From Salipiger profundus (GTDB lineage Bacteria > Pseudomonadota > Alphaproteobacteria > Rhodobacterales > Rhodobacteraceae): a stretch of 64,000 bases of DNA. This document shows positions 3,573-49,457 of this stretch, in pieces. A model generated the notes under the pieces. That model searched no databases. It was not told the DNA's origin and worked only from the letters and a program-made list of their open reading frames with translations. Location: the NCBI RefSeq assembly GCF_001969385.1, contig NZ_CP014796.1, positions 3,489,501 through 3,553,500 on the forward strand, written 5' to 3'. Numbering within the stretch: the first letter of the stretch is position 1; the number at the start of each line of letters is the position of its first letter. The translations under genes were made by a program, and so were the position numbers.

Positions 3573-5339
3573 ATGTCGGAAGAGACCAGAGACAAGACAC
3601 GACGCACGCGGCGCTCGGGTCCGCTCAGTTGGCGGGTGCGGGTCGCGCTCGGCGTGCTGCTGGCGTTGGCTGTGGCGACCGTCTGGGTCACCAACGTCCT
3701 CCTGACCGACCGTTTCACCGAGAGCACCCGCAACCGGGCCGAGCTGCGGCTTGCGCTCTATTCCGGCAACCTGCTTTCGGAACTGCGCCGCAACGCCATC
3801 GTGCCGCAGCTGCTGGCGCGGGATCCGGCGCTGATCGGCGCGCTGAACTCGAACGACTTCAGCCAGTCGTCGCAGCGGCTCATTTCCTACGTCGACGAAA
3901 TCGGCGCCGCCTCGCTCATGCTGCTGGACCGCGACGGGCGCACCGTCGCCGCGACCGACCGCAACCGGCTGGGCGAGCAGCACCGCAACGCGCAGTATTT
4001 CGTCGACGCGCTGCGCTCGAACACCACCGTCTTCACGACGCAGGCACGCGAGGCGGGAGGGTATTCCTTTACCTACTCGCGCCGGGTGGAAAGCCAGAAC
4101 TCGGCCATCGGCGTGATCGTGGTCGAGGTCGACCTCGCCAAGTTCGAGCGCGCCTGGGCCGGGATCACCGATGCCGTGGCGGTGCTGAACTCGGAAGGCA
4201 CAATCGTGCTTGCCACCGAGCCGCGCTGGCGGGGGCGCACCATCGAGGAGGCGCTGGTGCGCCAGTCCCCGGAAAGTGCCATCGAGCGTGCCATCAAGGC
4301 CACCGCCGACTGGACCGCGCTGCCGCCCGACGCCTACCTGTCGGGCGAGGCGGTGATGCGGGTCGACGGGCGCATCCCGTTCCGGGGCTGGACCATGGCG
4401 ACCTTCACTACCTACGCCAGCGTGCGCGAGAAGGTGAACGCGGTGCTGGCGCTCGAGATCATGGGATTCGCGCTGCTCGCGGCGCTGGCCTTCTACGCGC
4501 TGAGCCGCCGCACGGCGCTGCGCATGGCTCTGTTCCAGCGGGAATCCGCCGAGCTGCGCCGCCTTAACGCGCGGCTCCAGCGCGAAATCGCGGAGCGCGA
4601 GAAGGTGCAGAAAGACCTCGCCTCGGCCGAGCAGACGCTCGAGCAGAGCTCGAAGCTGGCCGCCCTCGGCGAGATGTCGGCCGCAGTCAGCCACGAGCTG
4701 AACCAGCCGCTCGCCGCCATGAAGACCTATCTGGCCGGCGCCCGGCTGCTGCTGCGCCGCAATCGGCCCGAAGAGGCGATGACCGCCTTCCACCGCATCG
4801 ACGACCTGATCGAGCGGATGGGGGCCATCACCCGCCAGCTGAAGTCCTACGCCCGCAAGGGGCAGGACGCGCTGAGCCCGGTGGACATGGGCGAGGCGCT
4901 GGCCTCGGCTCTGAGCATGATGGAGCCGCAGCTCAAGGCGCGCCGCGTCCGCATCACCAAGATCCTGCCCGACGAGCAGGTGCGCGTGATGGGCGACCGG
5001 ATGCGGATCGAGCAGGTTCTCGTGAACCTGCTGCGCAACGCCATCGACGCGACCAAGTCCGAGGCGCACCCCGAGATCGAGATCATCCTCGCCAGCGGCG
5101 AGACGGCGGTGCTGTCGGTGCGCGACAACGGCCACGGCATCGAGGATTTCGACGCGCTCTTCGAGCCGTTCTACACCACCAAGCAGCCCGGCGACGGCAC
5201 GGGGCTGGGGCTGGCGATCAGCTCCGGCATCGTCGCCGAGCTCGGCGGCCGGCTGACAGCACGGAACGGCGCCGAGGGTGGGGCTGTTTTCGAGATGCAG
5301 CTTCCTATCTTGAATGACAGGCCCGCCGCCGCCGAGTGA
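3573..5339 (+). CDS. dctB: DctB-like sensor histidine kinase
   Basis: This 588-residue inner-membrane kinase has TM helices at about 22-44 and 290-310 enclosing a periplasmic Cache/PDC-type sensor domain. A cytoplasmic coiled coil (about 320-362) leads to the kinase core. The phospho-acceptor is His374 in AAVSHELNQPLAAMKTY. The N box (LVNLLRNAIDAT) and the G boxes (DNGHGI, GTGLGLAISSGI) are intact. The architecture matches DctB, which senses C4-dicarboxylates and phosphorylates DctD. The next gene is a DctD-type regulator 47 bp downstream, so the two form one unit. No DctPQM or DctA transporter is in the window, so the ligand is inferred from family likeness only. Confidence 0.85.
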   Translation: MSEETRDKTRRTRRSGPLSWRVRVALGVLLALAVATVWVTNVLLTDRFTESTRNRAELRLALYSGNLLSELRRNAIVPQLLARDPALIGALNSNDFSQSSQRLISYVDEIGAASLMLLDRDGRTVAATDRNRLGEQHRNAQYFVDALRSNTTVFTTQAREAGGYSFTYSRRVESQNSAIGVIVVEVDLAKFERAWAGITDAVAVLNSEGTIVLATEPRWRGRTIEEALVRQSPESAIERAIKATADWTALPPDAYLSGEAVMRVDGRIPFRGWTMATFTTYASVREKVNAVLALEIMGFALLAALAFYALSRRTALRMALFQRESAELRRLNARLQREIAEREKVQKDLASAEQTLEQSSKLAALGEMSAAVSHELNQPLAAMKTYLAGARLLLRRNRPEEAMTAFHRIDDLIERMGAITRQLKSYARKGQDALSPVDMGEALASALSMMEPQLKARRVRITKILPDEQVRVMGDRMRIEQVLVNLLRNAIDATKSEAHPEIEIILASGETAVLSVRDNGHGIEDFDALFEPFYTTKQPGDGTGLGLAISSGIVAELGGRLTARNGAEGGAVFEMQLPILNDRPAAAE

Positions 5340-5386
5340 GCGCGCGACCGGGCCGAGACCGAAGGCAGAAAAGGCGAAAGACGAGA

Positions 5387-6721
<1,335 letters not shown>

Positions 6722-6727
6722 CCCCTT

Positions 6728-6755
6728 GGGGCGGTGCCGGGTCAGGCGCCGCCCC
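6728..6755 (+). terminator. Hairpin after dctD
   Basis: GGGGCGG and CCGCCCC form a stem 6 bp past the dctD stop. There is no T-run, so it may be an imperfect or Rho-assisted terminator. Confidence 0.5.
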
Positions 6756-8364: not shown

Positions 8365-9036
8365 TTAGTTCTTCGCCCTCACTCGGGCCTTGGTCAACAG
8401 CCGCGCCACCTCGGCCATGCGGGCCCGGGCGGCACGTCGCGTGTCGCTGTCCGGCAGGCGGGCGTCGAGCACCGCGTCGAGCTGTGCCCGCGCCTGTTGC
8501 TGCGTCACGCCGTCCAGGCTCAATCCGCAACGAAGCCAGATGCCGTCGATGGCCGTGGTCATCAGATCCGTAACCAGCGCGGCGTCGGACGCCGGCAACA
8601 GGCTGCGCAAAGGGCCGATCAGGTTCGACCGCATCCGCGCGTAGATCACCGTCTGGATGCGTTGGTAGACCGGCACATGCGGCACGCCCGCGCAAAGCGC
8701 GATCCAGGCGTGGGCCACCTCGGGGCGGAAGGAGGTGGGCGACAGGTTGGTCTCGATCACCGCGTAGACGCGCTCCCACGGTGTGCGGGCCTCGCCCAGC
8801 AGCAGCACCGCCTCGCGCAGCAGCTCGGCATTGGCGTGGCGCAGGGCGGCGGCCAGCAGCGCTTCCTTGGTCTTGAAGTAGTGCAGGACGTTGGCCTTGG
8901 AGGCACCGGCTTCTTCCGCCACACGCGCCAGCGAGGTGCCCTCGTTACCGTGCCGCATCAGCGCCCGATATGCCGCCGCGGCGTATTCCGCCCGCCTGAT
9001 CCGGGAAATGTCTCTGCGGCCCATGCTGGCACCCAA
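8365..9036 (-). CDS. betI: BetI-like TetR-family repressor
   Basis: The 223-residue regulator has an N-terminal TetR helix-turn-helix (TSLARVAEEAGASKANVLHYF). Its C-terminal domain matches BetI in several places: FRPEVAHAWIALCAG, MRSNLIGPLRSLLP and DGIWLRCGLSLDG. BetI represses glycine betaine synthesis and uptake genes and is relieved by choline. It is divergently arranged with a ChoX-type choline-binding protein, which fits that role. A 7-bp inverted repeat resembling BetI sites lies 35 bp upstream of the start. ATG 9036 was taken; ATG 9024 (MGRRDIS) is equally possible. betA and betB are not nearby. Confidence 0.8.
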   Translation of the reverse strand: MGASMGRRDISRIRRAEYAAAAYRALMRHGNEGTSLARVAEEAGASKANVLHYFKTKEALLAAALRHANAELLREAVLLLGEARTPWERVYAVIETNLSPTSFRPEVAHAWIALCAGVPHVPVYQRIQTVIYARMRSNLIGPLRSLLPASDAALVTDLMTTAIDGIWLRCGLSLDGVTQQQARAQLDAVLDARLPDSDTRRAARARMAEVARLLTKARVRAKN

Positions 9037-9070
9037 TCTGTCCGATCCATCCGATGACCGCTGCTAAATT

Positions 9071-9092
9071 AGATTGACTCTTCGTTCAATCT
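9071..9092. promoter_or_regulatory. Palindromic operator candidate (BetI-type)
   Basis: AGATTGA and TCAATCT form a perfect 7-bp inverted repeat around an 8-nt spacer, centred between the BetI-like gene and choX. The ATTGA...TCAAT core resembles the BetI operator as I remember it. It could control both divergent genes. Confidence 0.55.
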
Positions 9093-9152
9093 ATTCGAGC
9101 TTCACGTTTATGAACCAATCGGTCCATCTATATTCCATAAGGATCACGAACG

Positions 9153-10076
9153 ATGAAAGCCTGCCTTCCCGTCGCCGGACTTCTCGCCGTCACGACCACC
9201 GCCATGCCCGCCCTTGCAGACTGCTCGACGGTCCGTCTCGCGGAGCCGGGCTGGACCGATCTCGCGCTGACGACGGCCGTCACTCAGGTGCTGCTCGAAG
9301 GCATGGGGCATGAGACCGAAACCGAGATCCTAGGCATCCCGGTCATCTACGAGGCCATGAAGGCCGGCGATCTCGATGTCTTCATGGGCTACTGGGATCC
9401 GGCGATGGAAACCTATTTCAACGCCTACCGCGACACCGGCGAGATCGAGACCATCCACACCAACCTCGAGGGCGCCAAGTTCACCTGGGCGGTGCCGTCC
9501 TACGTGCACGAGGCCGGTGTGACCTCCTTCGCCGATCTCGCCGCGCAGGAGGACAAGTTCGGTGGCAAGCTCTACGGCATCGAGCCGGGATCGAACGACA
9601 TCATGCTCGAGATCGTCGAGAAGGACGAATTCGGCCTTGGCGACTGGGACGTGGTGGAAAGCTCCGAGCAGGGGATGCTGGCGCAGGTCGCGCGCGAGGT
9701 CCGGTCGGAAGACTGGATCGTCTTTCTTGCTTGGGCGCCGCACCCGATGAACACCAACTTCGACATCGCCTACCTCGAAGGTGGCGATGCCTGGTATGGT
9801 CCCGACTTCGGCGGGGCGACCGTCTCCACCCAGGTGCGCGAGGGCTACGTGTCCGAGTGTCCCGAGGTCGGCAAGCTGCTGACCCAGCTCACCTTCGACG
9901 TGGACATGGAGAGCGAAGGCATGGGCTACATTCTCGAAGACGGCATGCCCCCCAAGGAGGCCGCTCGCACCCTGATCGCCGCCTATCCGGACAGGCTGCA
10001 AGGCTGGCTGGACGGGGTCGAGACCGTGGACGGCGCACCGGCGCTCGCGGCAGTGAAGTCGGATCTCGGCCTGTGA
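9153..10076 (+). CDS. choX: Choline/glycine betaine ABC transporter substrate-binding protein
   Basis: This 307-residue periplasmic protein has a signal peptide cleaved near residue 22 (MPALA/DC). Aromatic residues Trp34 (EPGWTD), Trp81 (MGYWDP), Tyr117 and Trp194 (LAWAPHPMN) are placed like the aromatic box that binds the quaternary ammonium in Sinorhizobium ChoX. The LPSN-type signature MKAGDLDVFMGYWDP is typical of the choline/betaine class. Unusually, no permease (choW) or ATPase (choV) follows; the next gene is an alpha/beta hydrolase whose GTG overlaps this stop. It must therefore feed a transporter encoded elsewhere or have another role. It is likely controlled by the divergent BetI-like repressor. 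Confidence 0.88.
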   Translation: MKACLPVAGLLAVTTTAMPALADCSTVRLAEPGWTDLALTTAVTQVLLEGMGHETETEILGIPVIYEAMKAGDLDVFMGYWDPAMETYFNAYRDTGEIETIHTNLEGAKFTWAVPSYVHEAGVTSFADLAAQEDKFGGKLYGIEPGSNDIMLEIVEKDEFGLGDWDVVESSEQGMLAQVAREVRSEDWIVFLAWAPHPMNTNFDIAYLEGGDAWYGPDFGGATVSTQVREGYVSECPEVGKLLTQLTFDVDMESEGMGYILEDGMPPKEAARTLIAAYPDRLQGWLDGVETVDGAPALAAVKSDLGL

Positions 10077-10966
10077 CCAGCCTTCCGGCCGAGGACAGCT
10101 TCGCGGATCTCGGCAGCGGGCGGATCTGCTATCGGCAGGATGGCCGCTCCGACGCGCCGGCGGTGGTGCTTGTCGCTGGGCTCGGGATGCAGCTTATCGA
10201 ATGGCCGGAAGCCCTTGTGACGGCGCTGGCCCGGGAGTTCCGGGTGATCCGGCTCGACAACCGCGACAGCGGTCGGTCGGGCCGCTTCGGCGGCAGCTTC
10301 ACGCGGGTTCCGGCAGGGTTTTCCTGGTCGGAGAGCGCGCCCGGCCTCGCCGCCTACGACCTGCGCGACATGGCGCGGGACGTGTTGGACCTCGCGGATC
10401 ACCTCGGAATTGACCGCTTTGCCTGCGTCGGGTTTTCGATGGGCGGAATGATCGCGCAGATCCTGGCGGTCATGGCGCCCCGACGGGTTCGCGGCGTCGT
10501 CTCCCTGTCAAGCACGGGAGGCGATGCCTCGATCACCGCGACGCCCGAGTCCCTGCGGCTGATGGAGCGGTTCTTTCTTCCCTTCGCCTCGGAGACAGAG
10601 GCCGCGTGTGCAATTCGGCGAAGCAACGCCCATTTCTCGCTGGGGCTGATGCCAGAGGACAGCCCTGAGAACCATCAACTCGCTGCGGCGCTTGTCTGGC
10701 GCGCCGCGGACGGCGGCGGCTATCTCCGGCAGGCGCTCGCGATCACGACCACACGGCCATGGAGGCCCGAGCTTCTGGGCAGCCAGACCCCGATGCTTTT
10801 CCTTCATGGGGATCGCGACCCATGCATCGACGCGGTGTCGGCCCGCCAGCTGGCGGCAGCGTTGCCACGTGCAGGCTTCCGCTCCCATGCCGGGCTCGGA
10901 CACTGGATGGACGAGCGAACCGGCCGGGATTGCGTCGACTGGCTCACGGCACTTCGATCGGGCTGA
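10073..10966 (+). CDS. Alpha/beta hydrolase
   Basis: The protein has 297 residues from a GTG start that overlaps the choX stop (GTGA), implying translational coupling. It has the alpha/beta hydrolase nucleophile elbow GFSMGGM, an Asp in FLHGDRDPCID and a His in GLGHWMDE, forming a Ser-Asp-His triad. The oxyanion region is VVLVAGLGMQ. It resembles the esterase group that includes aclacinomycin methylesterase RdmC, but the substrate is unknown. The coupling suggests it may act on a choline or betaine ester taken up with ChoX; this is inference. No signal peptide is seen. Confidence 0.8.
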   Translation: MTSLPAEDSFADLGSGRICYRQDGRSDAPAVVLVAGLGMQLIEWPEALVTALAREFRVIRLDNRDSGRSGRFGGSFTRVPAGFSWSESAPGLAAYDLRDMARDVLDLADHLGIDRFACVGFSMGGMIAQILAVMAPRRVRGVVSLSSTGGDASITATPESLRLMERFFLPFASETEAACAIRRSNAHFSLGLMPEDSPENHQLAAALVWRAADGGGYLRQALAITTTRPWRPELLGSQTPMLFLHGDRDPCIDAVSARQLAAALPRAGFRSHAGLGHWMDERTGRDCVDWLTALRSG

Positions 10967-11386
10967 AGAAGAGGGGTGACCGAGGAAGGCGAGCGTCCTA
11001 CTCGATGGCCGCGACAAGCCGGTCGTGACATCTGGCGGCTGCATGGGACGCGGGACATCGCGCAGTGCCATGTGTTCAATCAGGTTTCGTTGCGAGTCTT
11101 TCGGCCGGGCTGGTCTGCCCCTGTCGGGGATGGTCCGGATCTTGAAACCCCAGACTTCACGTTCCGCCGTAGTCGACTCCGATCATCGTTCGGATACCGC
11201 CTATCTTTCGAGAAGTGGCCGGTTCAGAGGGCAATCAGGGGGAGATGCAACGCTTACGCTGGTTCCGAAGCTGGTGCATCCATTCCTTGTCATTGCGCGA
11301 CGGCCTCGGGAGGCCATGGCGGACATCCATGACGATCAGGATCTGAAAACCTACGAGCGAAACTGACGTCCTGTTTCGGTGAAGGG
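10967..11386. other. Intergenic region without recognised gene
   Basis: About 420 bp lie between the hydrolase and the terminator. Open frames here have atypical composition, no good ribosome-binding site and no family likeness. The segment borders the molybdenum/PQQ oxidation block and could be remnant DNA. Confidence 0.5.
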
Positions 11387-11420
11387 AAAAGCGCCGTGAT
11401 CCAAATCCCGGCGCTTTTTT
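11387..11420 (+). terminator. Strong intrinsic terminator, possibly bidirectional
   Basis: AAAAGCGCCG and CGGCGCTTTT pair around an 11-12-nt loop, followed on plus by TTTTTT. On minus the stem is followed by TTTTCCC, so it could also end the molybdenum hydroxylase transcript. Confidence 0.85.
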
Positions 11421-11478
11421 GTTGTGTGGACTTCGTTCACGGAGGCGGGCAAGCCCGCGCCCCGCATGAAGATACCTC

Positions 11479-13782
11479 TCAGACTGTCGTTCCCATGGGC
11501 AGGTGGCGCTTGCGCACGCCTGTTGCCACGAACAAGCCATTGGCAATGGCCGGTGGGACCGGCGGAACACCGGGCTCGCCCACCCCGGTCGCGTGATCGG
11601 CAAAGCTGTTCGGCATGATATGCGTCACCACCTTGCGCGGGAAGTTGTTGGCGCGGACCACATCGTAGTCGTAGAAGTTCGACTGCTGGACCGCGCCGTC
11701 TTCGTGGGTGATGCCCGAATACAGCGCCACCGTCATGCCCATCACGGCCGCGCCCTCCATCTGGCTGCGGATGCGCTCGGGGTTGGCCGCAAAGCCGCAG
11801 TCGATGGCCAGATGCAACTCCGGGACGGTGATCCGTCCATCCACGACCTTCACATGCGCGGCGCAGGCGACGTAGCTGACAAAGCTCCGATGCACGGAAA
11901 GCCCGATGCCTTCGCCTTCAGGCAGGTCCTTGCCGTAGCCGATGCCATCTGCGGCGGTCTGGAGCACAGCGGCCAGCTTGCCGGTCTGAATCGGAAAGCC
12001 GTCATACGGTTCGCCGTAGTTCCAGAACCCTTCGGGCAAGCCTTCGGAGGCCGGGTCGAAGGTGCGCGGCGCGCCGATCAGTTGCAGCCACGTGGCGAGT
12101 TGGTCCTGCCCGGTCTCTGCCGCCAGCTCCCCGACGAAAGATCCGATGGCCCAGGCGCGCGGCACGTTCGACACGGCGCGGAACCAGCCGATCCGGGTGT
12201 GGGCCGCGGCCTGCCCGTTCTCACAGCTGACATTGGCGATGTCGAAGGGCATGTCCACATGGCCCATGCCCGCTTCAACCGGAAACTGGTAGCCGGGATC
12301 CGGCGCAAAGGTCGACAGGATCGTCGGCGCGACGGAATTGTGCCGCCACGCGGTGACCTTGCCGACCTCGTCCATTCCGACCTCGATCCGTTCGGCGGAG
12401 GCGGTGTGGTAGAACGAATGTCGCACGTCGTCCTCGCGAGTCCACTGCATCCGCACTGGCGCGCCCACTTCGCGCGACAGCAGCGCCGCTTCGATCACGT
12501 AGTCTGCCTTGGACTTGCGCCCGAAACCGCCCCCGAGAAGCGTCACGTTGACCGTGACGTCCGCCGGTTCGATGCCGAGTGCCGCTGCCGTATCGGTGCG
12601 GGTGGTGTAGGGGCTCTGCACCGGGGCCCAGATTTCCAGCTTGCCAGAGGCGTAGCTGGCCAAAGCGGCGGGCGGTTCCATCGGGATGTGAGCGATGTGG
12701 TCCTGTGTGTAGGTCTGGCCAAAGGTCTTCGCAGCAGCGGACAGCGCCGCTTGGGTATCGCCCTTGTCCCGCAGAACTTTTCCACGGCCAAGCGCCGTGG
12801 CCTTCATTTCCTCCATGTAGGGGCCGGTCGAATAGCTGCCGTTCGGGCCATCGTCCCACTCGACCTTGATCATCTCGCGCGCCTTGATCGCCGTGAAGGT
12901 GTTCTTGGCAACCACGGCCAGACCGCCGAGCGGCGCGAACTTGGCCGGAGCCTTCCATTCCGGCAACTCGTAGACGCCAACCACGCCTGGCATCGCCAGC
13001 GCGTCCGCGGCGTCATAGGAGACAAGCCTGCCTCCGACCACCGGCGGACGGATGGCCATCGCCACCTTTGCGCCCGGAAGGGTCACGTCGGCACCATAGA
13101 CCGCCTTTCCAGTGGTGATGTCGTGCAGGTCGGTGATCTGCACCTCGCCCTTGCCGATATAGCGGAACTCGCTCTCGGTCTTGTACGCGATCTCCTCATG
13201 CGCCGGTACGGGCTGGGCCATGGCCGCCTCCGCGAACTCGCCGAAGTCTGCGGACTGTCCGTCGGGGCCGGTGATCGCATGCATTTCGACCGTTACCTGC
13301 GACGGGTCGACGTTCCATTCCGCAGCCGCCGCACGCTGCAGCATCGTGCGCACCGAGCCGCCGATCTTGCGCGCCGCCTGGATATGGTGGCGCATCGAAC
13401 GCGATCCGTCGGTGTCCTGGTTGCCGTATTTCGGCTCATCGCCGGGCGCCTGCACGATCTTCACGCGCGACCAGTCGGCCTCCATCTCGTCGGCCATGAC
13501 CATTGGGAGCGACGTCCGGCTGCCGGTGCCCATCTCGGAGCGATGTGCTGTCAGCGTCACGGTTCCGTCGGCGTCGATCGCGACGAACACGAGCGGATCG
13601 TCCACGACTCCGTTGGGCATGCCCACAGCGCCGGTTTCCCATGTCGGGAAGGCTTCCCCGCGGGTCGCGAAGACGCCCAGCGCAAAGGCGGCAGTGCCGC
13701 CGAGGAAGGCGCGGCGAGACATCGGGCGGACGGTGAGCGTTTCGGCGACGGCGGGGGTGAAATCCTTCAGATACTGTAACAC
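11479..13782 (-). CDS. Tat-exported molybdopterin hydroxylase large subunit (IorB-like)
   Basis: This 767-residue xanthine-oxidase-family catalytic subunit belongs to the isoquinoline 1-oxidoreductase/membrane aldehyde dehydrogenase type. A twin-arginine signal (MSRRAFLGGTAAFALGVFA) starts near residue 21, so it folds in the cytosol and acts in the periplasm. Cofactor loops include SEMGTGSRTSLPMVMADE and LLGGGFGRKS. The catalytic Glu lies in GVGEPGVPPVPPAIANG at the C-terminus. The start is a GTG at 13782, 3 bp after the small-subunit gene. Likely reaction: oxidation of an aldehyde or N-heterocycle with electrons passed to its 2Fe-2S partner. The adjacent PQQ alcohol dehydrogenase favours an aldehyde. 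A second copy of this gene pair lies at 17670-20313. Confidence 0.88.
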   Translation of the reverse strand: MLQYLKDFTPAVAETLTVRPMSRRAFLGGTAAFALGVFATRGEAFPTWETGAVGMPNGVVDDPLVFVAIDADGTVTLTAHRSEMGTGSRTSLPMVMADEMEADWSRVKIVQAPGDEPKYGNQDTDGSRSMRHHIQAARKIGGSVRTMLQRAAAAEWNVDPSQVTVEMHAITGPDGQSADFGEFAEAAMAQPVPAHEEIAYKTESEFRYIGKGEVQITDLHDITTGKAVYGADVTLPGAKVAMAIRPPVVGGRLVSYDAADALAMPGVVGVYELPEWKAPAKFAPLGGLAVVAKNTFTAIKAREMIKVEWDDGPNGSYSTGPYMEEMKATALGRGKVLRDKGDTQAALSAAAKTFGQTYTQDHIAHIPMEPPAALASYASGKLEIWAPVQSPYTTRTDTAAALGIEPADVTVNVTLLGGGFGRKSKADYVIEAALLSREVGAPVRMQWTREDDVRHSFYHTASAERIEVGMDEVGKVTAWRHNSVAPTILSTFAPDPGYQFPVEAGMGHVDMPFDIANVSCENGQAAAHTRIGWFRAVSNVPRAWAIGSFVGELAAETGQDQLATWLQLIGAPRTFDPASEGLPEGFWNYGEPYDGFPIQTGKLAAVLQTAADGIGYGKDLPEGEGIGLSVHRSFVSYVACAAHVKVVDGRITVPELHLAIDCGFAANPERIRSQMEGAAVMGMTVALYSGITHEDGAVQQSNFYDYDVVRANNFPRKVVTHIMPNSFADHATGVGEPGVPPVPPAIANGLFVATGVRKRHLPMGTTV

Positions 13783-13785
13783 GGC

Positions 13786-14238
13786 TCAGATCCCCGCGCT
13801 GGCGAGGCGCACGGCCTCGACGATGCGTTGATAGCAGCCACAACGGCAGACGTTGCCGGCCATGGCCTCCAGAATTTCATGATCGCTCGGCTTCGGGTTT
13901 TCTTTGAGAAGCGCAGCGGCCTGCATGATCTGACCTGACTGACAGAAGCCGCATTGCGGAACGCTCAGATCGCGCCAGGCCACCTGGATAGGATGGTTGC
14001 CTTCGGGGTGCAGGCCCTCGATGGTCGTGACCTCCCCGTCGGCGGCATCATCAAGCGTCTTCTGGCACGAACGTTCGGCCTTCCCGTTCAAATGCACCGT
14101 GCACGAGCCACATAGGCCGGCGCCGCAGCCATACTTGGCCCCGGTGAGGCTAAGATCATCGCGCAGCACCCAGAGAAGGGGTGTATCCCCCGATGCGTCG
14201 ATCTGTCTTGTTTCTCCATTGACCGTAAGTCGTACCAT
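13786..14238 (-). CDS. 2Fe-2S small subunit of molybdenum hydroxylase (IorA-like)
   Basis: The 150-residue protein has two [2Fe-2S] domains typical of the small subunit of xanthine-oxidase-family enzymes. The plant-ferredoxin-like site has CGAGLCGSC plus a downstream Cys, and the helical second site has CGFCQSGQ and CRCGCYQR. It has no signal peptide and would be co-exported with its large subunit. The ATG at 14238 (MVRLTVNGETRQIDASGD) matches paralogues; an upstream in-frame start would add 43 unrelated residues. It is the first gene of a two-gene minus-strand operon with the large subunit 3 bp downstream. It diverges from the PQQ dehydrogenase. Confidence 0.93.
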   Translation of the reverse strand: MVRLTVNGETRQIDASGDTPLLWVLRDDLSLTGAKYGCGAGLCGSCTVHLNGKAERSCQKTLDDAADGEVTTIEGLHPEGNHPIQVAWRDLSVPQCGFCQSGQIMQAAALLKENPKPSDHEILEAMAGNVCRCGCYQRIVEAVRLASAGI

Positions 14239-14706
14239 GCGTGTTCCTCCCTGGCGGCGTCTGGACGCCATTGCTTGGCCGGTGCGTTTGCGCGACATGG
14301 ATGACGGCTGGCGCACCCCTTCAGTTTCCTCCGCGTCAAGTATTGGCAAAGCGCAGGTTGCGATCAAGCGTCCGGTCGCGCGCTCGGCCCACAGAGAGGT
14401 TCTTCAAAATCTTCCTATGGTTGCCAGAGGGTGGGCCTGCGAACAGCTTCGTTGACTCGTCAATGTGCCGTTTCCTAGCTTTTTCAAAGCAATCCCGGTC
14501 GTTTTTGGGTGGGGAAGTTGCAGTGTTATTGGAGGAGTCACTGCCGCAATAGTTGTGTCTCCCTGCATGTCAGGCGGGGGACGCGGCCGCACCACGACCG
14601 GATTTGCGCAAAGGAGGAGATCGATGTTCCGGCGCAGGCGGATGACCGTCTTGCGCGATCAGGCCGCTGCATCCGCATCAGCCTTCGGAACAAAAGGGAG
14701 GACATC
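14239..14706. other. Divergent regulatory region before the PQQ dehydrogenase
   Basis: 468 bp separate the minus-strand molybdenum operon from the PQQ dehydrogenase start. A purine-rich ribosome-binding site (AAAAGGGAGG) lies just before ATG 14707. The middle is lower in GC than its surroundings, as expected of a control region. I found no unambiguous -35/-10 pair or palindrome, and in-frame upstream starts for the dehydrogenase would remove its signal peptide. Confidence 0.5.
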
Positions 14707-16389
14707 ATGAAGAAAACGCTTTTGGCGTTGTCAGTGTCGGCTGTGGCACTGACCGGCGCAGCGCATGCGCAAAGCGCGTCGGATCTTGCGGCCGACGCGC
14801 AGACCACCGACGAGATCATCACATACGGCATGGGGTACGGGCAGCAGCGTTACAGCTCGCTTGACCAGATCAACGCAGACAACGTGTCGTCGCTGGCGCC
14901 GGTCTGGACGCTCAGCCTTGCGGATACGAATTCGAACGAGACGTTCCCAATTCTGCATGACGGCACCTTCTATGTCACGACGCATGACGCGACCGTGGCG
15001 ATCGATGCCATGACCGGCAAACAGAAGTGGAAGACTTATTCCGACTATCCGTCCGACGCCAAGCGCATCCTCTGCTGCGGTGTGCACAACCGTGGCGTTG
15101 CCATCTACGAGGGCAAACTGTTCCGCGGCACGCCCGATGCGCATGTGATCGCGCTGGATGCTGAAACCGGCGAGGAGCTCTGGCGTACCCGTTCCGACGA
15201 CTACAAGCTGGGCCATAACTTCACCGCAGCGCCGCAGATCGCCGATGGCGTAATCATCCTGCCGGTGGCCGGCAGCGACTATGGCATTCGCGGCTATATC
15301 GAGGGATACGATCCCGAAACCGGCGAAAAACTGTGGCGGACCTACACCATTCCCGGGCCGGGCGAGCAGGGGCACGAGACCTGGGAAGGCGGCGGCGATG
15401 CCTGGCAGCACGGCGGCGCTGGCGGCTGGATCACCACCTCGTACGATCCGGAACTGAACCTGATCTACATGGGCACCGCCAATGCCTCGCCGTTCAATGC
15501 GTCCGTGCGGCCGGGGGACAATCTGCATACTTCGTCGATCCTGGCCATCGAGCCGAAGACCGGCGAAATCAAGTGGCACTACCAGACCTCCCCACATGAT
15601 GCCTTCGATTACGACAGCATGAACGAGAACGTGCTTGCCGATATCGACGGCCGCAAGGTGCTGATGCATGCCAACAAGAACGGCTTCCTTTACACGCTCG
15701 ACCGCGAGACCGGAGAGCTGATCGCCGCCAATCCCTTCATGGGCGAAGGGCAGATCAACTGGGCGGACGGCATCGATCTGGAGACCGGGCGCCCCAATCA
15801 CACCGAAGTCTACCATAAGGCCGTTTCGGGTGAGCAGGTGACGGTTCAGCCCGGATATCTCGGCGGCAAGAACTACGCGCCGATGTCCTACGACCAGAGC
15901 ACCGGCAACGTTTACATCAATACCCTGATCCTGCCGTTCAACCACAAGAACGCGGAACCGGTCTATACTCAGGGCGTGATGTACGTCGGTGTCGATATGT
16001 CGTTCGGCGTGCCGGAAGACGGTCATGCAGGCGATACCGTCGCGATCAACCCGATGACGGGCGAGGTCGCCTGGCGTCAGGAACTGGGCGTGCCGCGATG
16101 GGGGGGCATCGCCAGCACAGCCGGGGGCGTTGTCTTTACTGGTGAACTGACCGGCGAATTCAGTGCGCTCGATGCGGCCACCGGCGAGGTCCTGTGGTCC
16201 TACCAGACAGGCTCGGCGGTCAGCGGTCAGCCGGTGGTCTGGGAAAAGGACGGGCGCCAGTTCGTGACGGTCGGAAACGGGGGCGGGGCGACTTATGACC
16301 TTGTTTCCGGTGACGACCGGATCGCGAACGTTCCGCCCGGAGCGAGCATATGGACCTTTGCCCTGCCCGAAGGAGGGCAGGACGGATGA
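14707..16389 (+). CDS. PQQ-dependent alcohol dehydrogenase with lanthanide-type active site
   Basis: This is a 560-residue periplasmic quinoprotein of the methanol/ethanol dehydrogenase family, with a Sec signal peptide cleaved near residue 21-22 (AHA/QSA). It shows the beta-propeller W-docking repeats (TGEELWR, TGEKLWR, TGEVLWS), the adjacent-cysteine pair Cys123-Cys124 next to PQQ, and SYDPELNLIYMGTANASPFN. Catalytic Asp301 is followed by Asp303 (SPHDAFDYDSMN). An Asp at the +2 position is the published hallmark of lanthanide-dependent XoxF/ExaF enzymes, whereas calcium MxaF has Ala. The usual metal-ligand Glu (GAEYGVRG-like) is Asp191 here (SDYGIRG). Its stop overlaps the next gene (ATGA), a cytochrome/binding-protein fusion. 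Substrate unknown; an alcohol is expected. Confidence 0.88.
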   Translation: MKKTLLALSVSAVALTGAAHAQSASDLAADAQTTDEIITYGMGYGQQRYSSLDQINADNVSSLAPVWTLSLADTNSNETFPILHDGTFYVTTHDATVAIDAMTGKQKWKTYSDYPSDAKRILCCGVHNRGVAIYEGKLFRGTPDAHVIALDAETGEELWRTRSDDYKLGHNFTAAPQIADGVIILPVAGSDYGIRGYIEGYDPETGEKLWRTYTIPGPGEQGHETWEGGGDAWQHGGAGGWITTSYDPELNLIYMGTANASPFNASVRPGDNLHTSSILAIEPKTGEIKWHYQTSPHDAFDYDSMNENVLADIDGRKVLMHANKNGFLYTLDRETGELIAANPFMGEGQINWADGIDLETGRPNHTEVYHKAVSGEQVTVQPGYLGGKNYAPMSYDQSTGNVYINTLILPFNHKNAEPVYTQGVMYVGVDMSFGVPEDGHAGDTVAINPMTGEVAWRQELGVPRWGGIASTAGGVVFTGELTGEFSALDAATGEVLWSYQTGSAVSGQPVVWEKDGRQFVTVGNGGGATYDLVSGDDRIANVPPGASIWTFALPEGGQDG

Positions 16390-17648
16390 TCAGATATATC
16401 GCGATCCTGCTCATGCTGGCACTTCCCGTAGCGCCAGCGATGGCCGACACGATCGACGACCGGGTGACGGCGGGAAAGAGCGTGTATCAGCGTACCTGCA
16501 TCCGCTGTCATGGCGCCAACCTTCGGAACTCGGGCAACCAGTCCTTCGACCTGCGCAAGTTTCCGGCCGAGCAGTTCACCCGCTTCGAGGACTCGGTCAA
16601 GAATGGCAAGCGGCGCATGCCGCCTTGGGGCGATATCCTGTCGGACGAGGACATCAAGGCGCTCTGGGCGTATGTTGCCACCCACGCCGGCACTCAGGAC
16701 ATCCCCCAGGAGGCCATGGCCCCTTTCGAGGATGAAGAGCACAGTGGCCTGACGGAGGATCCGTCAGGCACCACATTCGACACGGTCAGGGCTGACACCC
16801 TGACCGTTTGCGTTTCACGCAATGGCAGCGCCATGTCCGGCTGGCGGCACGAGAGCGGCGTCGGTCTGGATTACCGCATGTCCGTCGCACTGGCCGAGGC
16901 GCTCGACCTGGACTTTCGGCCGCTCTGGTATGAGGCCGACGGCGGCGGCAACCCCATTCTTGAACCCTCGGCGCTGTTGTCTGCGGATTTGTGCGACCTG
17001 GTGGCAGGGCATCCGTTGATTTCCAGCGCCGTGGGGGCGCCAAGTGTCGCACGCGGTCGTATGCCTGAATGGATGGGCCGTCCGGACAAGACGGACCCGC
17101 GCCGGATAACGGTCGACCTCGAAACGCTCGCCGTCAGTTCGCCTTTTCGGCGCGAAGAGCTCGGACTGGTTTTCGCGCCGTCCGCCAAGGTTGCCGACGA
17201 CGCGTCGTTGAATGACCTGGGCGGTCTCACCGTGGGCTATCAGGGCGATACGGTGGCCGAGGTCATCATCCGCCTCGGCGCGCAGGATGACGTGCGGGAT
17301 GCATCCCGCTCATACCCAGCCGGAGCCGCCTTCCTGTGGCGCCTGGAAACGGGCGAGATCGATGCCGCGCTGGTCGAGGTCAGCGCCTATGACTTCATGC
17401 TCCGCCAGAATGCCATCTCAAAGCTGCGGCTTGGCAGCTGGCGCCATGGCTTCGGGATCAACGTGGGCTATGCCATGCTCGCCGAACAGAATGACCTGCG
17501 TGCGGCCGTGGACGATGCGCTTGCCGATCTCGTGCAGTCGGGGGTTGCGGCGGATCTCGCCGCGCTCGACCAGCTTCACTACATCGCGCCAAAGGAACCG
17601 GCCATGCTGCCGTCCGTGAGCCTTGCGCAACTCACAGCTTTCCACTGA
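16386..17648 (+). CDS. Fusion of cytochrome c (XoxG-like) and periplasmic binding domain (XoxJ-like)
   Basis: The 420-residue protein is translationally coupled to the PQQ dehydrogenase. Residues 1-20 are a signal peptide. Residues about 25-115 form a class I cytochrome c with heme site Cys38-Ile-Arg-Cys41-His42 and probable axial Met78 (RRMPPWG). After a linker, residues about 138-410 form a family-3-type solute-binding domain (LTVCVSRNGSAMSGWRHES, then VGLDYRMSVALAEALDLDF). In lanthanide methanol dehydrogenase loci, xoxG (cytochrome acceptor) and xoxJ (binding protein) are normally separate genes after xoxF; here both activities are in one chain. Role inferred: electron acceptor and activation or maturation partner of the upstream enzyme. 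Confidence 0.8.
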   Translation: MIRYIAILLMLALPVAPAMADTIDDRVTAGKSVYQRTCIRCHGANLRNSGNQSFDLRKFPAEQFTRFEDSVKNGKRRMPPWGDILSDEDIKALWAYVATHAGTQDIPQEAMAPFEDEEHSGLTEDPSGTTFDTVRADTLTVCVSRNGSAMSGWRHESGVGLDYRMSVALAEALDLDFRPLWYEADGGGNPILEPSALLSADLCDLVAGHPLISSAVGAPSVARGRMPEWMGRPDKTDPRRITVDLETLAVSSPFRREELGLVFAPSAKVADDASLNDLGGLTVGYQGDTVAEVIIRLGAQDDVRDASRSYPAGAAFLWRLETGEIDAALVEVSAYDFMLRQNAISKLRLGSWRHGFGINVGYAMLAEQNDLRAAVDDALADLVQSGVAADLAALDQLHYIAPKEPAMLPSVSLAQLTAFH

Positions 17649-17669
17649 CCTCAGAAAAGGCGTTTCGGA

Positions 17670-18131
17670 ATGTCGATCAAGCTCAGCATAAATTTTTCCA
17701 ACGTGACCGTCGATGCCGACCCGGACATGCCCCTTCTGTGGGCCATTCGTGACAAGCTTGGCCTGACGGGCACCAAGTTCGGCTGCGGCGTTGGTGCCTG
17801 CGGTGCCTGCACGGTCCATATCGACGGCGTTGCGGTCAGATCCTGCCAGACACCCGTCGGCGATGTGGGTGACGGCAAGATTACCACGATCGAGGCGGTC
17901 TCGGGCAAGACCGGGGCGGCGGTGCAACAGGCTTGGGCCGAAATGGACGTGGTGCAATGCGGCTACTGTCAGTCTGGCCAGATCATGCAGGCGGTTGGGC
18001 TTCTGACCGAGAACCCGCGTCCGACCGCGCAGGAAATCGAAGACGGCATGTGGGGCAATGTTTGTCGCTGCGCCACGTATCAACGCATCCGTGCAGCCGT
18101 GGCGCGCGCGTCTGACATCCTGGAGGCCTGA
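17670..18131 (+). CDS. 2Fe-2S small subunit of second molybdenum hydroxylase
   Basis: The 153-residue IorA-like protein has two [2Fe-2S] sites: CGVGACGAC plus a following Cys, and CGYCQSGQ with CRCATYQR. It parallels the minus-strand small subunit at 13786-14238 but is clearly divergent from it, so the two pairs are not a recent duplication. It starts 21 bp after the cytochrome fusion, in the same direction and probably the same transcript. It has no export signal of its own and would travel with the Tat-targeted large subunit encoded 2 bp downstream. Confidence 0.93.
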   Translation: MSIKLSINFSNVTVDADPDMPLLWAIRDKLGLTGTKFGCGVGACGACTVHIDGVAVRSCQTPVGDVGDGKITTIEAVSGKTGAAVQQAWAEMDVVQCGYCQSGQIMQAVGLLTENPRPTAQEIEDGMWGNVCRCATYQRIRAAVARASDILEA

Positions 18132-18132
18132 A

Positions 18133-20313
18133 ATGACCGTGACACTTTCCCGCCGCCGCTTCCTGGCATCCGCTACCGCCGGCGCTTTCGTGATCGGGGC
18201 CGCTCCGAATGGGGCGCTGGCCTTCGGTGCCCCGCCCAAGGTCGCCGGGTTCACACCCTTCATCCGCATCGACAGCGACAACCGGATCACCGTGATCGTC
18301 AAGCATTTCGAGATGGGGCAGGGCACCTCGACCGGCCTTCCGGCACTGGTGGCCGAGGAGTTGAACGCCGATCTCGGTGCCATCATCGTCGAGTTCGCGC
18401 CGGTCGATCCGGCCTACAACAACCTCTTGATGGGGGCGCAGTTGACGGGCGGCTCCACCGCCATGGCGAACAGCTACATGCAATACCGCAAGGCCGCCGC
18501 CGCCGCGCGCGATGTTCTGCTCGAGGCCGCCGCACAGGAGTGGGGCGTCGCGGCCCAAGGTCTCGCGCTCGACGATGGAACAATCCGGGGTGCGGGCAGG
18601 TCGGGCGAGATCGGTGAATTCGTCGAAGCCGCCGCGCGCCTGGACTTGCCGCAGGAGCCGGTGCTCAAGGATCCGTCGCAATTCCGGCTGATCGGCAATG
18701 CCAGCGCGCGGCGCAAGGATACGCCCTCCAAGGTGAACGGCAGCGCCAAGTTCGGCATGGATGTGCAACTGGCGGATCAGATCATTGCCGTGATGATCCG
18801 CCCACCTCGTCTTGGCGCGAGACTGACAAGCTTTGACGCGTCGGGTGCGGAAGCGGTCAGGGGCTTCATCGGGGCAAGGCCGCGCGATGGCGGAAACGGG
18901 GTCGTGGTCTTGGCCGAGGATACCTGGGCAGCGTTTCAGGCGCGTGCGGCAATCACCACCGAATGGGATTTCTCCGGCACCGACGGCCGCAGCCAGGACG
19001 CAATTCGCGCGGACATGCTGAACAAGGTCCGGACGACACCGGAATTCGAGGCTCGAGCCGACAAGCCCCGCCATGAAGTCGCCGCGACAATCGACGGCGC
19101 TGCGAATATGGTCGAAGGCGAGTATTTCTTTCCTTCGCTGGCCCATGCGCCGATGGAGCCGATCAACTGCACGGTCGAGCCGGATGGCAAAGGGGGCGTT
19201 GTGCTGCACGACGGATGCCAGTTCCCCACCCAGGCTCAGGCGCTGGTGGCGGCGACGCTCGGGCTCGATCCCGCAAAGGTTGCGATCAAGACCTACTATG
19301 CCGGAGGATCCTTCGGTCGCCGCGCCAACACGGATGCCGATTACCAGGTCGAGGCCGCCGAAGCGTTCCAGCTGAGCGGCGGGGACAGGCCGGTCAAGCT
19401 GGTCCATTCGCGCGAGGATGACATTACCGGCGGCTACTACCGTCCTGCCTTTGCGCACCGGGTGCAGGTCGGCCTGGACGCCGAAGGCCGGATCGTCGGA
19501 TGGGATCACCAGTTGGCCGGCCAGTCGATCATCAAGGGAACACCGTTCGAAGAGGCGCTCGCGCAAGGCGGTGTCGATGCGCTATCGGTCGAAGGGGTCC
19601 GCGATACCGGCTATGCCGTTGGCGACATGTTCGTCGGTCTGACGGATGAAGAACCGCTGTCCAAGGTCCTCTGGTGGCGGTCGGTCGGACACAGCCACAC
19701 CGCCTACGCGATGGAAACCATGATGGACAAGGCCGCCCGCGCCGTTGGTGCGGACCCGGTCGCCTTCCGCCTCAGGCATCTGGCCGGTGACGGTGCGGAC
19801 CAAAAGCGCTTGTCAGGCGTTCTGAAGGCGGCGGCAGAGGCCTCCGGCTGGGATACGCCGGCCCCGGAAGGCCGGGCGCGCGGTGTTGCAGTACACAAGT
19901 CCTTCAATTCTTATGTGGCCGAGGTCGTCGAGGTTTCGCAAGCAAACGGCGCCATCCGGATTGAGAAAGTCACCTGCGCGGTGGATTGCGGCGTGGCGGT
20001 GAACCCCGACATCATCAGGGCCCAGATGGAAAGCGGCATCGGCTACGGGCTCGGCCATGTCATGCGCGACGCGATCACCTTTGCGGATGGCGCTGTGGAG
20101 CAGCGCAACTTCCCCGACTACGAGCCGCTGCGGGTGTCCGACATAGGCGAGATCGACGTGGTCATCGTGCCCTCGGAGGAGGCTCCGACCGGCGTTGGCG
20201 AGCCGGCGGTCCCGCCGTCCGGTCCGGCACTGGCGAACGCCATTGCCGCGCTGATGCCGGATGCGTCTCTGTCGGCGCTGCCGCTCGAAGCGCACGGGAT
20301 CCGGTTCGCCTGA
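18133..20313 (+). CDS. Tat-exported molybdopterin hydroxylase large subunit (second copy)
   Basis: This 726-residue IorB-like subunit begins MTVTLSRRRFLASATAGAFV, a clear twin-arginine signal. Molybdopterin loops include FEMGQGTSTGLPALVAEE and YAGGSFGRRAN, and the active-site Glu is in GVGEPAVPPSGPALANA. The ATG at 18133 gives the Tat signal directly; upstream in-frame starts overlap the small-subunit gene. It is the last gene of the probable operon of PQQ dehydrogenase, cytochrome fusion, 2Fe-2S subunit and this subunit. That order predicts oxidation of an alcohol to an aldehyde by the quinoprotein and of the aldehyde to an acid here. Substrate specificity is unproven. Confidence 0.88.
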   Translation: MTVTLSRRRFLASATAGAFVIGAAPNGALAFGAPPKVAGFTPFIRIDSDNRITVIVKHFEMGQGTSTGLPALVAEELNADLGAIIVEFAPVDPAYNNLLMGAQLTGGSTAMANSYMQYRKAAAAARDVLLEAAAQEWGVAAQGLALDDGTIRGAGRSGEIGEFVEAAARLDLPQEPVLKDPSQFRLIGNASARRKDTPSKVNGSAKFGMDVQLADQIIAVMIRPPRLGARLTSFDASGAEAVRGFIGARPRDGGNGVVVLAEDTWAAFQARAAITTEWDFSGTDGRSQDAIRADMLNKVRTTPEFEARADKPRHEVAATIDGAANMVEGEYFFPSLAHAPMEPINCTVEPDGKGGVVLHDGCQFPTQAQALVAATLGLDPAKVAIKTYYAGGSFGRRANTDADYQVEAAEAFQLSGGDRPVKLVHSREDDITGGYYRPAFAHRVQVGLDAEGRIVGWDHQLAGQSIIKGTPFEEALAQGGVDALSVEGVRDTGYAVGDMFVGLTDEEPLSKVLWWRSVGHSHTAYAMETMMDKAARAVGADPVAFRLRHLAGDGADQKRLSGVLKAAAEASGWDTPAPEGRARGVAVHKSFNSYVAEVVEVSQANGAIRIEKVTCAVDCGVAVNPDIIRAQMESGIGYGLGHVMRDAITFADGAVEQRNFPDYEPLRVSDIGEIDVVIVPSEEAPTGVGEPAVPPSGPALANAIAALMPDASLSALPLEAHGIRFA

Positions 20314-21011
20314 TCGCCCCCGGCCAGACCGGCCGGGCGAGCTCCACCAGAAGGCCGCTTCGAAATTTCCCGAGGCGGCGCAGGGCAAGCACGGCCGGTC
20401 TGACGCTTTGAGGACTGTCATGAGCGCGACGCGTGGGGCAGCGCGACTTCCTTGCGCACCATGGCGGAAATGGCAATTTTCGTCGGTTTACCTACGCATA
20501 TGAGTTGGGTGTTCCCGGCTTCGAGAGTCCAAATACAAACGGCGGGCCGTAATTGGCTCGCCGAATGGCCGTGTGCCTGCCCTCGTCATCCTGACGCGCC
20601 TTGGTGCGTGACCTTTACTCTCGAAGACGCGCCCCTGCGGATGAGGGAAACACAGCTGGATATTCTCACAAGAAGCGAGTGGCCACAGTCAGCATGCCGG
20701 TTCGGACCGGTTGCGATTGTCAATTCTGGGTAACCTCAGGCGTCCGGACGATCCGCGCCCGAGGCTTTTTGATCCTCGCTCGAGGGGGCTGTGATGCGAC
20801 GGAGCTCCGGTACGTTTCCCTCACTGCCTTTTACGCACCGCGCGCTCGCGGACCTCAGGGGGAAAACTTGCCCGTTGTCTCGCTCATGAGGCTCAACCTT
20901 ACTCGGGAGGCGGAGTCTCCGGAAAATTTGGCGCGGTTCACTTCCAGCCCGGCTAGCGCACTGCTGCATCAGACATGCTCTGAGGGAATAACAAAGTATT
21001 GTGGGGGGTAT
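20314..21011. other. Long intergenic region before tRNA-Gly
   Basis: About 700 bp hold no supportable gene. A GC-rich inverted repeat with no T-run (20315-20339) directly follows the large-subunit stop and may act as a weak terminator. The rest has lower GC and mixed composition, like the segment at 10967-11386 on the other side of the oxidation block. Confidence 0.5.
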
Positions 21012-21085
21012 TGGAGCGGGTGAAGGGAATCGAACCCTCGTCGTAAGCTTGGGAAGCTTCTGCTCTACCATTGAGCTACACCCGC
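21012..21085 (-). tRNA. tRNA-Gly (CCC anticodon)
   Basis: The minus strand reads GCGGGTGTAGCTCAATGGTA at the 5' end, an anticodon loop TTCCCAA, a GGTTCGATTCC T arm and an encoded 3' CCA. The 7-bp acceptor stem GCGGGTG/CACCCGC is perfect. The loop gives anticodon CCC. The 3' end faces the molybdenum/PQQ block. Confidence 0.95.
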
Positions 21086-21095
21086 CTTGAACCCG

Positions 21096-21124
21096 TGATT
21101 ACTTCAGCCGCGCGTGGCTGACAA
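21096..21124 (-). promoter_or_regulatory. Promoter for tRNA-Gly
   Basis: On minus, TTGTCA (21124-21119) and TAATCA (21101-21096) are 17 bp apart, 10 bp from the tRNA 5' end. The same TTGTCA -35 with a 17-bp spacer precedes tRNA-Ser at 32777. Confidence 0.55.
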
Positions 21125-21282
21125 GCGGTTGTTTCGGCGGTGCGCGAGACGACCCGCCGATGCCGCGCCGCGGCGGGCAAATGCGCCTTGCACACAAGGG
21201 CGCGGACGCATAGAAGACCGCAAATTCGACAGAGGAAAGGCGGCACTGCAAAAGCGGCCGCAAGAGAACCAAGGAAGATGGT

Positions 21283-22614
21283 ATGCAGGTCACCGAGACG
21301 CTGAACGAAGGGCTCAAGCGCGCCTACGAGCTTATCCTCACCGCCGAGGAGCTGGACGCGAAGGTCAACGCCAAGCTCAAGGAAGCGCAGCCCGAGATCG
21401 AGATGAAGGGCTTCCGCAAGGGCAAGGTGCCGATGCCGCTGCTCAAGAAGCAGTTCGGCCAGCGCCTGATCGGCGAATCCATGCAGGAAGCCGTCGACGA
21501 GGCGATGTCGAAGCATTTCGAGGACAGCGGCGACCGTCCGGCGCTCCAGCCCAAGATCGAGATGAAGAACGAGGACTGGAAAGAGGGCGACGACGTCAAT
21601 GTCGAGATGTCCTACGAGAAGCTCCCCGAGGTGCCCGAGGTCGACATGTCGGCCATCGAGGTCGAGAAGCTCGTGGCCAAGGCCGATGATGGGGCCGTCG
21701 ACGAGGCTCTCGCCTCGCTCGCCGAGACCGCGCAGGACTACAAGGACCGCGACGAGGGCGCGGAAGCCGTCGACGGCGATCAGGTCGTCATCGATTTCGT
21801 CGGCAAGGTCGACGGCGAGCCCTTCGAGGGCGGTGCTGCCGAAGACTACCCGCTGGTGCTGGGCTCGAACTCCTTCATCCCGGGCTTCGAAGAGCAGCTC
21901 GTCGGCGTGAAGGCCGGTGACGAGAAGGCCGTCGAGGTTTCCTTCCCCGAGGAATACGGCGCAGAGAACCTCGCCGGCAAGGCAGCCGTCTTCGACGTGA
22001 CCGTGAAGGCCGTCAAGGAGCCCGTCGCCGCCGAGATCGACGACGAGATGGCCAAGAAGTTCGGTGCCGAGGATCTCGAGGCGCTGAAGGGCCAGATCCG
22101 TGAGCGCCTGGAAGCCGAATATGCCGGCGCCGCGCGCCAGGTGATGAAGCGCGAGATGCTCGACAAGCTCGACGCGCTCGTGAGCTTCGACCTGCCGCCG
22201 AGCCTCGTGGACGCGGAAGCCAAGCAGATCGCCCACCAGCTCTACCACGAAGAGCACCCGGAAGATCACGGTCACGATCACGGCGAGATCGAGCCGACCG
22301 ACGAGCACGTCAAGCTCGCCGAGCGCCGCGTGCGCCTTGGCCTGCTGCTCGCCGAGATCGGCCAGAAGGCTGAAGTCGAGGTCACCGATGCCGAGATGAC
22401 CCAGGCGATCATGAACCAGGCTCGCCAGTATCCGGGCCAGGAGCGCGCCTTCTTCGACTTCGTGCGCCAGAACCAGCAGATGCAGCAGCAGCTGCGCGCG
22501 CCGATCTTCGAGGACAAGGTCATCGACCACATCGCCGAGCAGGCGCAGGTGACCGAGAAGGAAGTCTCGAAGGAAGAGCTGCAGACCGCCGTCGAGGAAC
22601 TCGACGACGAGTAA
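21283..22614 (+). CDS. tig: Trigger factor
   Basis: This ribosome-bound chaperone and peptidyl-prolyl isomerase has 443 residues. The N-terminal ribosome-binding domain carries a [17 protein letters not shown] motif (family signature GFRxGKxP). The FKBP-type PPIase domain runs roughly from 160 to 245 ([17 protein letters not shown] and [18 protein letters not shown]), followed by the helical C-terminal arms. The C-terminal region holds a His/acid-rich insertion ([16 protein letters not shown], about residues 325-340) that could bind metal. It is monocistronic, with an intrinsic terminator 43 bp after the stop. Confidence 0.97.
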
Positions 22615-49427: not shown

Positions 49428-49457
49428 AGAAACTGATAGAAACAGTCAGAAAATGAG
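49428..49457. promoter_or_regulatory. Three 10-bp phased repeats, candidate AraC-family operator
   Basis: AGAAA occurs at 49428, 49438 and 49448, exactly one helical turn apart, within units AGAAACTGAT, AGAAACAGTC and AGAAAATGAG. They lie between the divergent AraC-type gene and the receptor and end about 11 bp before the receptor start. Direct, phased repeats are typical of AraC-family sites. Confidence 0.55.

Follow-up and report, generated by a model that had tools for sequence, protein, structure and literature searches.

A PQQ-dependent alcohol dehydrogenase of Salipiger profundus with a D-x-D motif, an aspartate in the column of a metal-ligand glutamate, and a fused cytochrome c-J partner

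Genes at the locus

The window, i.e. the whole 64-kb stretch of DNA analysed here, corresponds to C1:3489501-3553500 of the 5.42-Mb genome of Salipiger profundus, which is rated 100% complete. A type I PQQ-dependent alcohol dehydrogenase of 560 amino acids is encoded on the forward strand at 14707..16389. It has a signal peptide (by eye), and no heme domain was found in it. The frame of 560 codons starts with an ATG at 14707, preceded by AGGGAGGA at 14695-14702, and ends with a TGA at 16387-16389. That this gene encodes a quinoprotein alcohol dehydrogenase, as originally predicted, is confirmed: the ORF is as given there, and the product, which has the propeller fold of the TIGR03075 family (methanol/ethanol family PQQ-dependent dehydrogenase), scores 588.2 bits against that model, above the curated cut-off of 480.05.

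The start of the next gene, 16386..17648 on the same strand, lies within the stop codon of the dehydrogenase gene (ATGA). Its product is a fusion of a monoheme cytochrome c with a XoxJ-like periplasmic-binding domain. Behind a signal peptide (by eye) there is one CXXCH cytochrome domain, with the heme motif CIRCH at 16497-16511 (forward strand), and then the binding domain, called J below, at about 16770-17645 (forward strand). The two domains share one frame, as in a cytochrome cGJ-like fusion.

Two genes for a molybdenum enzyme follow, also on the forward strand. The first, 17670..18131, encodes the 2Fe-2S small subunit of a xanthine-oxidase-family oxidoreductase (PF01799, PF00111) and the second, 18133..20313, a molybdopterin large subunit (PF02738, PF20256; start by inspection) with the twin-arginine motif SRRRFLAS (by eye). 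A second, divergent pair is found on the reverse strand, with a 2Fe-2S small subunit at 13786..14238 (PF01799, PF00111; start by inspection) and, assigned by domain profiles, a large subunit at 11479..13782 with the twin-arginine motif SRRAFLGG (by eye). The two large subunits are 31% identical, and the best PDB match of both is 8gy3_C, an aldehyde dehydrogenase large subunit (4.7e-64 for 18133..20313 and 1.6e-80 for 11479..13782). A 2Fe-2S subunit together with a MoCoBD subunit carrying a Tat motif (by eye) fits a molybdenum aldehyde dehydrogenase, of a class which we take to be AldFGH/IorAB-like. Promoter and terminator scans gave a yield no higher than that of shuffled sequences.

The metal site of the dehydrogenase

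Asp301-Tyr302-Asp303 (15607..15615, forward strand) comprises the catalytic base, Asp301, and, as Asp303, the additional Asp of lanthanide type. The original prediction placed Asp301 and Asp303 in the metal column and stated that calcium enzymes have Ala, Ser or Thr at the second position, and the alignments bear out both points. Both residues align with the D-F-D of PedH (phmmer), while the same column reads D-F-S in ExaA, D-F-T in the quinohemoprotein alcohol dehydrogenase (qhADH) 1kv9 and D-Y-T in 1kb0. With the genome's own XoxF (D-Y-D) as a bridge, it reads D-Y-D in 6dam and 4mae, D-F-D in 6oc5 and D-Y-A in 1lrw and 4tqo. MxaF thus has Ala, ExaA Ser and qhADH Thr, and in the window enzyme the metal-column residue two positions past the catalytic base is itself Asp, a mark of the lanthanide class.

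By itself the Asp-Tyr-Asp tripeptide is little evidence, since its codon pattern is seen five times in the window, where 1.1 would be expected, and two of 100 shuffles reach five. A chance motif is nevertheless rejected, as the alignment puts the Asp pair in the metal columns. The motif is not peculiar to the window gene. It is common to the whole clade as sampled, with both Asp present in 94 of 94 loci examined and in all 120 homologs listed of 6045 matches (residue-column counts are from a 217-row alignment in which some genes are entered twice). The metal-ligand Asn, Asn259 (15481..15483, forward strand), is likewise Asn in 94/94 loci and in 120/120 of the homologs listed of 6045. Cys123-Cys124 (15073..15078, forward strand) aligns with the vicinal Cys pair of PQQ alcohol dehydrogenases, which is Cys in 120/120 of the same listed homologs and in 76 of the 94 loci. 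Within the genome, D-x-D is found in the three best-matching quinoproteins, i.e. the window enzyme, XoxF (L019 5722-7527) and a PedH-type enzyme (L018 4977-6740). A 772-residue ORF in L020 also has D-Y-D, seen outside any alignment.

The third acidic ligand is where the window enzyme departs from its relatives. Solved lanthanide enzymes have the metal ligands Glu, Asn, Asp and Asp, the Glu being Glu172 in the XoxF of SolV and Glu199 in PedH (the part of PMC11845868 consulted). Each of the 10 PDB chains compared has Glu in this column, whereas the window enzyme has Asp191 (15277..15279, forward strand). Among the 120 homologs listed of 6045 there are 117 Glu and three Asp, the latter in the window protein itself (P0001), in its Salipiger P9 counterpart (P0002) and in P0003. 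Across the 94 loci we count Glu in 90, Asp in three (the window; L148, which holds the P0002 gene; and L082, whose enzyme is a 43% relative of the window enzyme) and Gly in one (L083). The full ligand set of the lanthanide class is therefore not complete here, as Asp191 takes the place of Glu. No description of such a Glu-to-Asp ligand change was found in the open-access literature among the matches listed (titles and abstract starts). Asp191 would preserve the charge of the site, but probably not its shape; the structure model of the dehydrogenase scores below 50 at residues 190-192 and is too poor there for ligand geometry.

PedH is the best PDB match of the dehydrogenase (phmmer, 4.4e-122), followed by ExaA and quinohemoprotein alcohol dehydrogenases and then by XoxF. 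The score against PedH is 412 bits, compared to 846 bits for the PedH-type enzyme of the same genome. PedH is also the nearest structure, and the Ca-type ExaA is almost equally near in fold.

The metal-column residues make the window enzyme a genuine candidate for rare-earth use, and we consider lanthanide use likely. We know of no assay of any enzyme from its clade. The biochemically confirmed lanthanide users are only XoxF-type and type 2b enzymes (ExaF, PedH), according to PMC11996626. That ocean survey takes D-x-D as a predictor of lanthanide use by assumption. This assumption may fail, because D-x-D is also reported for m-GDH, an enzyme able to bind Ca, Mg, Zn or Sr (PMC11996626). The example of m-GDH also lends weight to a different reading, in which the enzyme is calcium-dependent or metal-promiscuous despite D-x-D and Asp191 makes the site suit a divalent ion again. 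PedH itself appears able to coordinate Ca as well (PMC11845868, in the part consulted), the change from Glu to Asp at 191 is a real departure, and ExaA is nearly as near in fold as PedH. However, three carboxylates are retained, so that the charge favouring a trivalent ion would be kept, and the nearest structure is still PedH. We regard a calcium-dependent or promiscuous enzyme as a serious possibility, although a minority one, and continue with the lanthanide reading.

The cytochrome c-J fusion and the cassette

Of the 94 loci, 50 reach 588 bits or more against the window enzyme, and in 47 of these the dehydrogenase gene is followed on its own strand by a cytochrome and a J domain. This cut-off, which leaves 44 loci below it, was set after the table had been inspected. 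The three exceptions are L047 and L056, both at a contig end, and L156, which shows neither cytochrome nor J up to the end of its contig about 1.2 kb further on. The J model used for these counts, which derives from fusion proteins and may overlook a distant J, found none in the 44 lower-scoring loci. In a Rokuibacteriota record (L089 11685-12371), a XoxJ-like gene outside the modelled J family lies directly behind a 41% relative of the dehydrogenase. The 47 cassette loci are not independent, as 29 of them are titled Bradyrhizobium. In several relatives the operon continues with pedA1/A2-like, ABC exporter or pqqBCDE genes (named by eye). We found no description of the cassette in the open-access literature, among the matches listed (titles and abstract starts).

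In the Bradyrhizobium loci, cytochrome and J occupy separate frames. They share a single frame in seven of the 47 loci, six of them distinct when L027 and L151, whose contigs are equally long, are counted once: the window, L148, L149, L105, L151 and L028. In L151 (10410-11951, and also in L027) two cytochrome domains precede J in the single frame. A protein search found at least nine fusion relatives over the full length, the window's own protein included. This is an undercount, as the search scored no more than 7993 candidates and the loci yielded additional fusions.

The cytochrome of the fusion has no match to TIGR03874, to which the genome's own XoxG scores 245 bits. The target J has no match to TIGR03871 or TIGR03870 at E 10 and so fails the TIGR03871 cut-off of 212, while the genome's own XoxJ reaches 295.5 bits. 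The J domains of relatives match these two models weakly (0.018 for P0124; 0.0015 and 0.088 for the Bradyrhizobium locus L037). With hhalign, a profile of 54 J domains (some entered twice) aligns to a XoxJ profile over 275 columns (98.9%, E 1.2e-17). Among the controls, a choline-binding protein and one receptor family stay below 1% and a second receptor family reaches 45%. A Cys pair in this alignment is invariant in 54/54 J rows and 21/21 XoxJ rows. By profile homology and this Cys pair, J is related to the XoxJ/MxaJ/PedG type.

It could be argued that J is an ordinary amino-acid-binding receptor that was fused by chance and is no maturation partner. Its best profile matches in the PDB are indeed amino-acid-binding proteins (1.7e-15, compared to 2.6e-4 for the XoxJ structure 6onp). 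The best 50 fold matches of the fusion model, which is of modest quality (pLDDT 62.8), are of the same type; XoxJ is absent among them, which is informative neither way. A XoxJ-like role for J therefore rests on context and on the profile link. Both speak against an ordinary receptor, as no permease or ATPase is present in the four-gene operon, J recurs behind the dehydrogenase in those 47 of the 50 best-scoring loci, and its Cys pair aligns with that of XoxJ. We find a chance-fused receptor unlikely, and favour a XoxJ/PedG-like partner of the dehydrogenase.

Phylogeny, genome context and proposed role

In a 67-row tree (midpoint root, some long-branch rows, ExaF left out), the window enzyme falls in a 38-row clade with support 100/100, which extends to Bradyrhizobium, Betaproteobacteria and Acidobacteria. 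This clade adjoins the ExaA/PedH clade (100/100) at 93/80, below the starred level. The PedH-type enzymes of the genus itself are within the ExaA/PedH clade and the window enzyme is outside it. The XoxF/MxaF clade (100/100) is separate as well. By this tree, the enzyme groups with neither XoxF nor PedH.

The window enzyme, P0002 and P0003 form one branch (100/99). At 26 positions these three lack the residue common to at least 90% of 128 close rows; a 27th listed position, a gap in two of the three, is left out of this count. Among the 26 are position 191, position 263 with Phe or Tyr in place of Trp, and position 324 with Lys in place of Arg; from known structures, we take these three to be at or near the active site. 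Lys324 (15676..15678, forward strand) is at a presumably PQQ-contacting position at which Arg is the rule in close homologs (R 116, K 3, H 1 among the 120 homologs listed of 6045). As a rarity it was rejected, since Lys is found in 24 of the 94 loci.

So many changed positions could mean that this Asp191 lineage is decaying, or has lost the metal and PQQ chemistry and taken another role. However, the frame is open, and the catalytic Asp, the Asn, the Cys pair and the second Asp are all retained. Compared to the Salipiger P9 gene, dN is 0.196 and dS 1.17, i.e. dN/dS is about 0.17, which suggests purifying selection on the dehydrogenase gene; for the fusion gene dN/dS is 0.34. Both ratios are rough because dS is above 1 and near saturation. 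Decay or a lost chemistry thus seems very unlikely to us, and a working dehydrogenase is preferred.

The original prediction described an organism without any other methylotrophy gene in the window; for the genome this does not hold. It carries a xoxF-xoxG-xoxJ cluster (L019 4281-10125, C1 about 1.268-1.274 Mb), a PedH-type enzyme whose gene is preceded by a small cytochrome-like one (by eye; L018, region 4430-6740) and pqq genes. Next to xoxFGJ are genes for a cytochrome c550, S-formylglutathione hydrolase and GSH-formaldehyde dehydrogenase (by eye), and the strain looks able to oxidise methanol. The pqqABCDE genes and the lanthanide TonB receptor that the prediction proposed to look for fared differently: pqqC was located at about C1:1.24 Mb, and pqqA, B, D and E adjoin it (by eye), whereas the five TonB receptors from a PF00593 search include none that could be tied to lanthanides. 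One of these five, next to an AraC-type regulator, is in the window at 49453-51573. A PF13202 search gave four EF-hand matches, none recognised as lanmodulin.

A methanol dehydrogenase equivalent to XoxF and serving methylotrophy, to which the PQQ-cytochrome-J order would fit by its likeness to xoxFGJ, is rejected as highly improbable: the enzyme is outside the XoxF/MxaF clade (100/100), a true xoxFGJ is at another site in the genome, and the window gene adjoins aldehyde-oxidase-type genes.

We suggest that the locus oxidises alcohols to acids in the periplasm, probably by a lanthanide-PQQ enzyme and then a molybdenum enzyme, via the fused cytochrome; this reading is favoured with some confidence. 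In it, Asp191, Asn259, Asp301 and Asp303 would form the metal site, most likely holding a light lanthanide. The PQQ dehydrogenase would form an aldehyde from a primary alcohol, with methanol probably not its main substrate, and the single-heme cytochrome domain encoded by the overlapping fusion gene would receive the electrons. The J domain may act as XoxJ or PedG do, in maturation of the apo-enzyme or in docking of the dehydrogenase to the cytochrome. The aldehyde would then be oxidised to the acid by the co-encoded Mo/2Fe-2S enzyme, which carries a twin-arginine export motif.

The gene order PQQ dehydrogenase, fusion, small subunit, large subunit recurs in Salipiger P9. Most other loci are without a Mo large subunit in the stretch examined, so a molybdenum enzyme is no general component of the cassette. 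A likely TRAP transporter (L148 1382-4412; by eye), which could import the acid product, adjoins the cassette of Salipiger P9.

A similar two-step oxidation from alcohol to acid is known from acetic acid bacteria, with a PQQ alcohol dehydrogenase (8gy2, from Gluconobacter oxydans by its structure record) and a Mo aldehyde dehydrogenase (8gy3, presumably also acetic-acid-bacterial). Unlike in that system, the window has both kinds of enzyme in one gene cluster, and the neighbouring window ORFs examined include none recognised as a multiheme cytochrome subunit.

The enzyme class is already known; what differs here is the metal site and the fused partner. With the type 2b enzymes PedH (Pseudomonas putida) and ExaF the window enzyme shares D-x-D, the vicinal Cys pair and a type I organisation with a separate cytochrome, and PedH is its best match in sequence and structure. 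However, PedH is in a separate clade at 100/100 (ExaF is not in the tree) and has Glu199 where the window enzyme has Asp191, and the window cytochrome, unlike in the PedH/ExaF system, is fused to J. A XoxJ-like protein beside a PQQ alcohol dehydrogenase other than XoxF is not new, because the ped cluster encodes the XoxJ-like PedG, which accompanies PedE/PedH (PMC12997753, in the part consulted). The XoxF-XoxG-XoxJ system likewise co-encodes a D-x-D dehydrogenase, a cytochrome and a J-type binding protein, but the window enzyme is not a XoxF by the tree and its J is too distant for TIGR03871. Cytochrome cGJ of Methylacidiphilum, a genus from a different phylum, has by its description a similar layout, in which a single polypeptide contains both cytochrome c and J and serves a PQQ dehydrogenase. 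There the partner is XoxF, whereas the window fusion is paired with a different dehydrogenase. In the Methylacidiphilum strains SolV and Kam1, XoxG is described as "exceptionally" fused to XoxJ (PMC8170126, in the excerpt consulted).

More tentatively, it can be speculated that the locus represents a D-x-D branch whose site has been rebuilt on Asp191, Asp301 and Asp303, with its own fused acceptor and maturation protein and a metal choice unlike that of XoxF and PedH, so that rare-earth alcohol oxidation and molybdenum aldehyde oxidation would be linked in one operon. We hold this wider proposal to be possible, though doubtful. If true, the three-Asp branch may, for example, use another lanthanide size range, or both calcium and lanthanides.

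The Asp191 change and the fused partner are the most useful features of the locus. A clade that keeps D-x-D while one of its branches is without the Glu carboxylate is a natural experiment on which ligands decide the metal choice, and on D-x-D alone as a lanthanide predictor. The cytochrome-J fusion offers a ready test of J protein function.

Close copies of the dehydrogenase are rare in the taxa around S. profundus. Counting this genome, a threshold of E 1e-150 gives 3/295 sampled genomes in the family, and one of E 1e-140 gives 6/390 in the order and 7/385 in the class. In the genus, two of 20 genomes have one (this genome and one at 73%), and the next best matches are PedH-type, at most 45%. 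Five of the PQQ genes (L077, L082, L098, L099 and L101) are in records titled Bordetella parapertussis MAG, names that look misassigned. An Rfam scan of window 9000-22000 found nothing but a tRNA: this tRNA-Gly gene, at 21012-21085 and 0.7 kb past the cassette, could mark the edge of an island.
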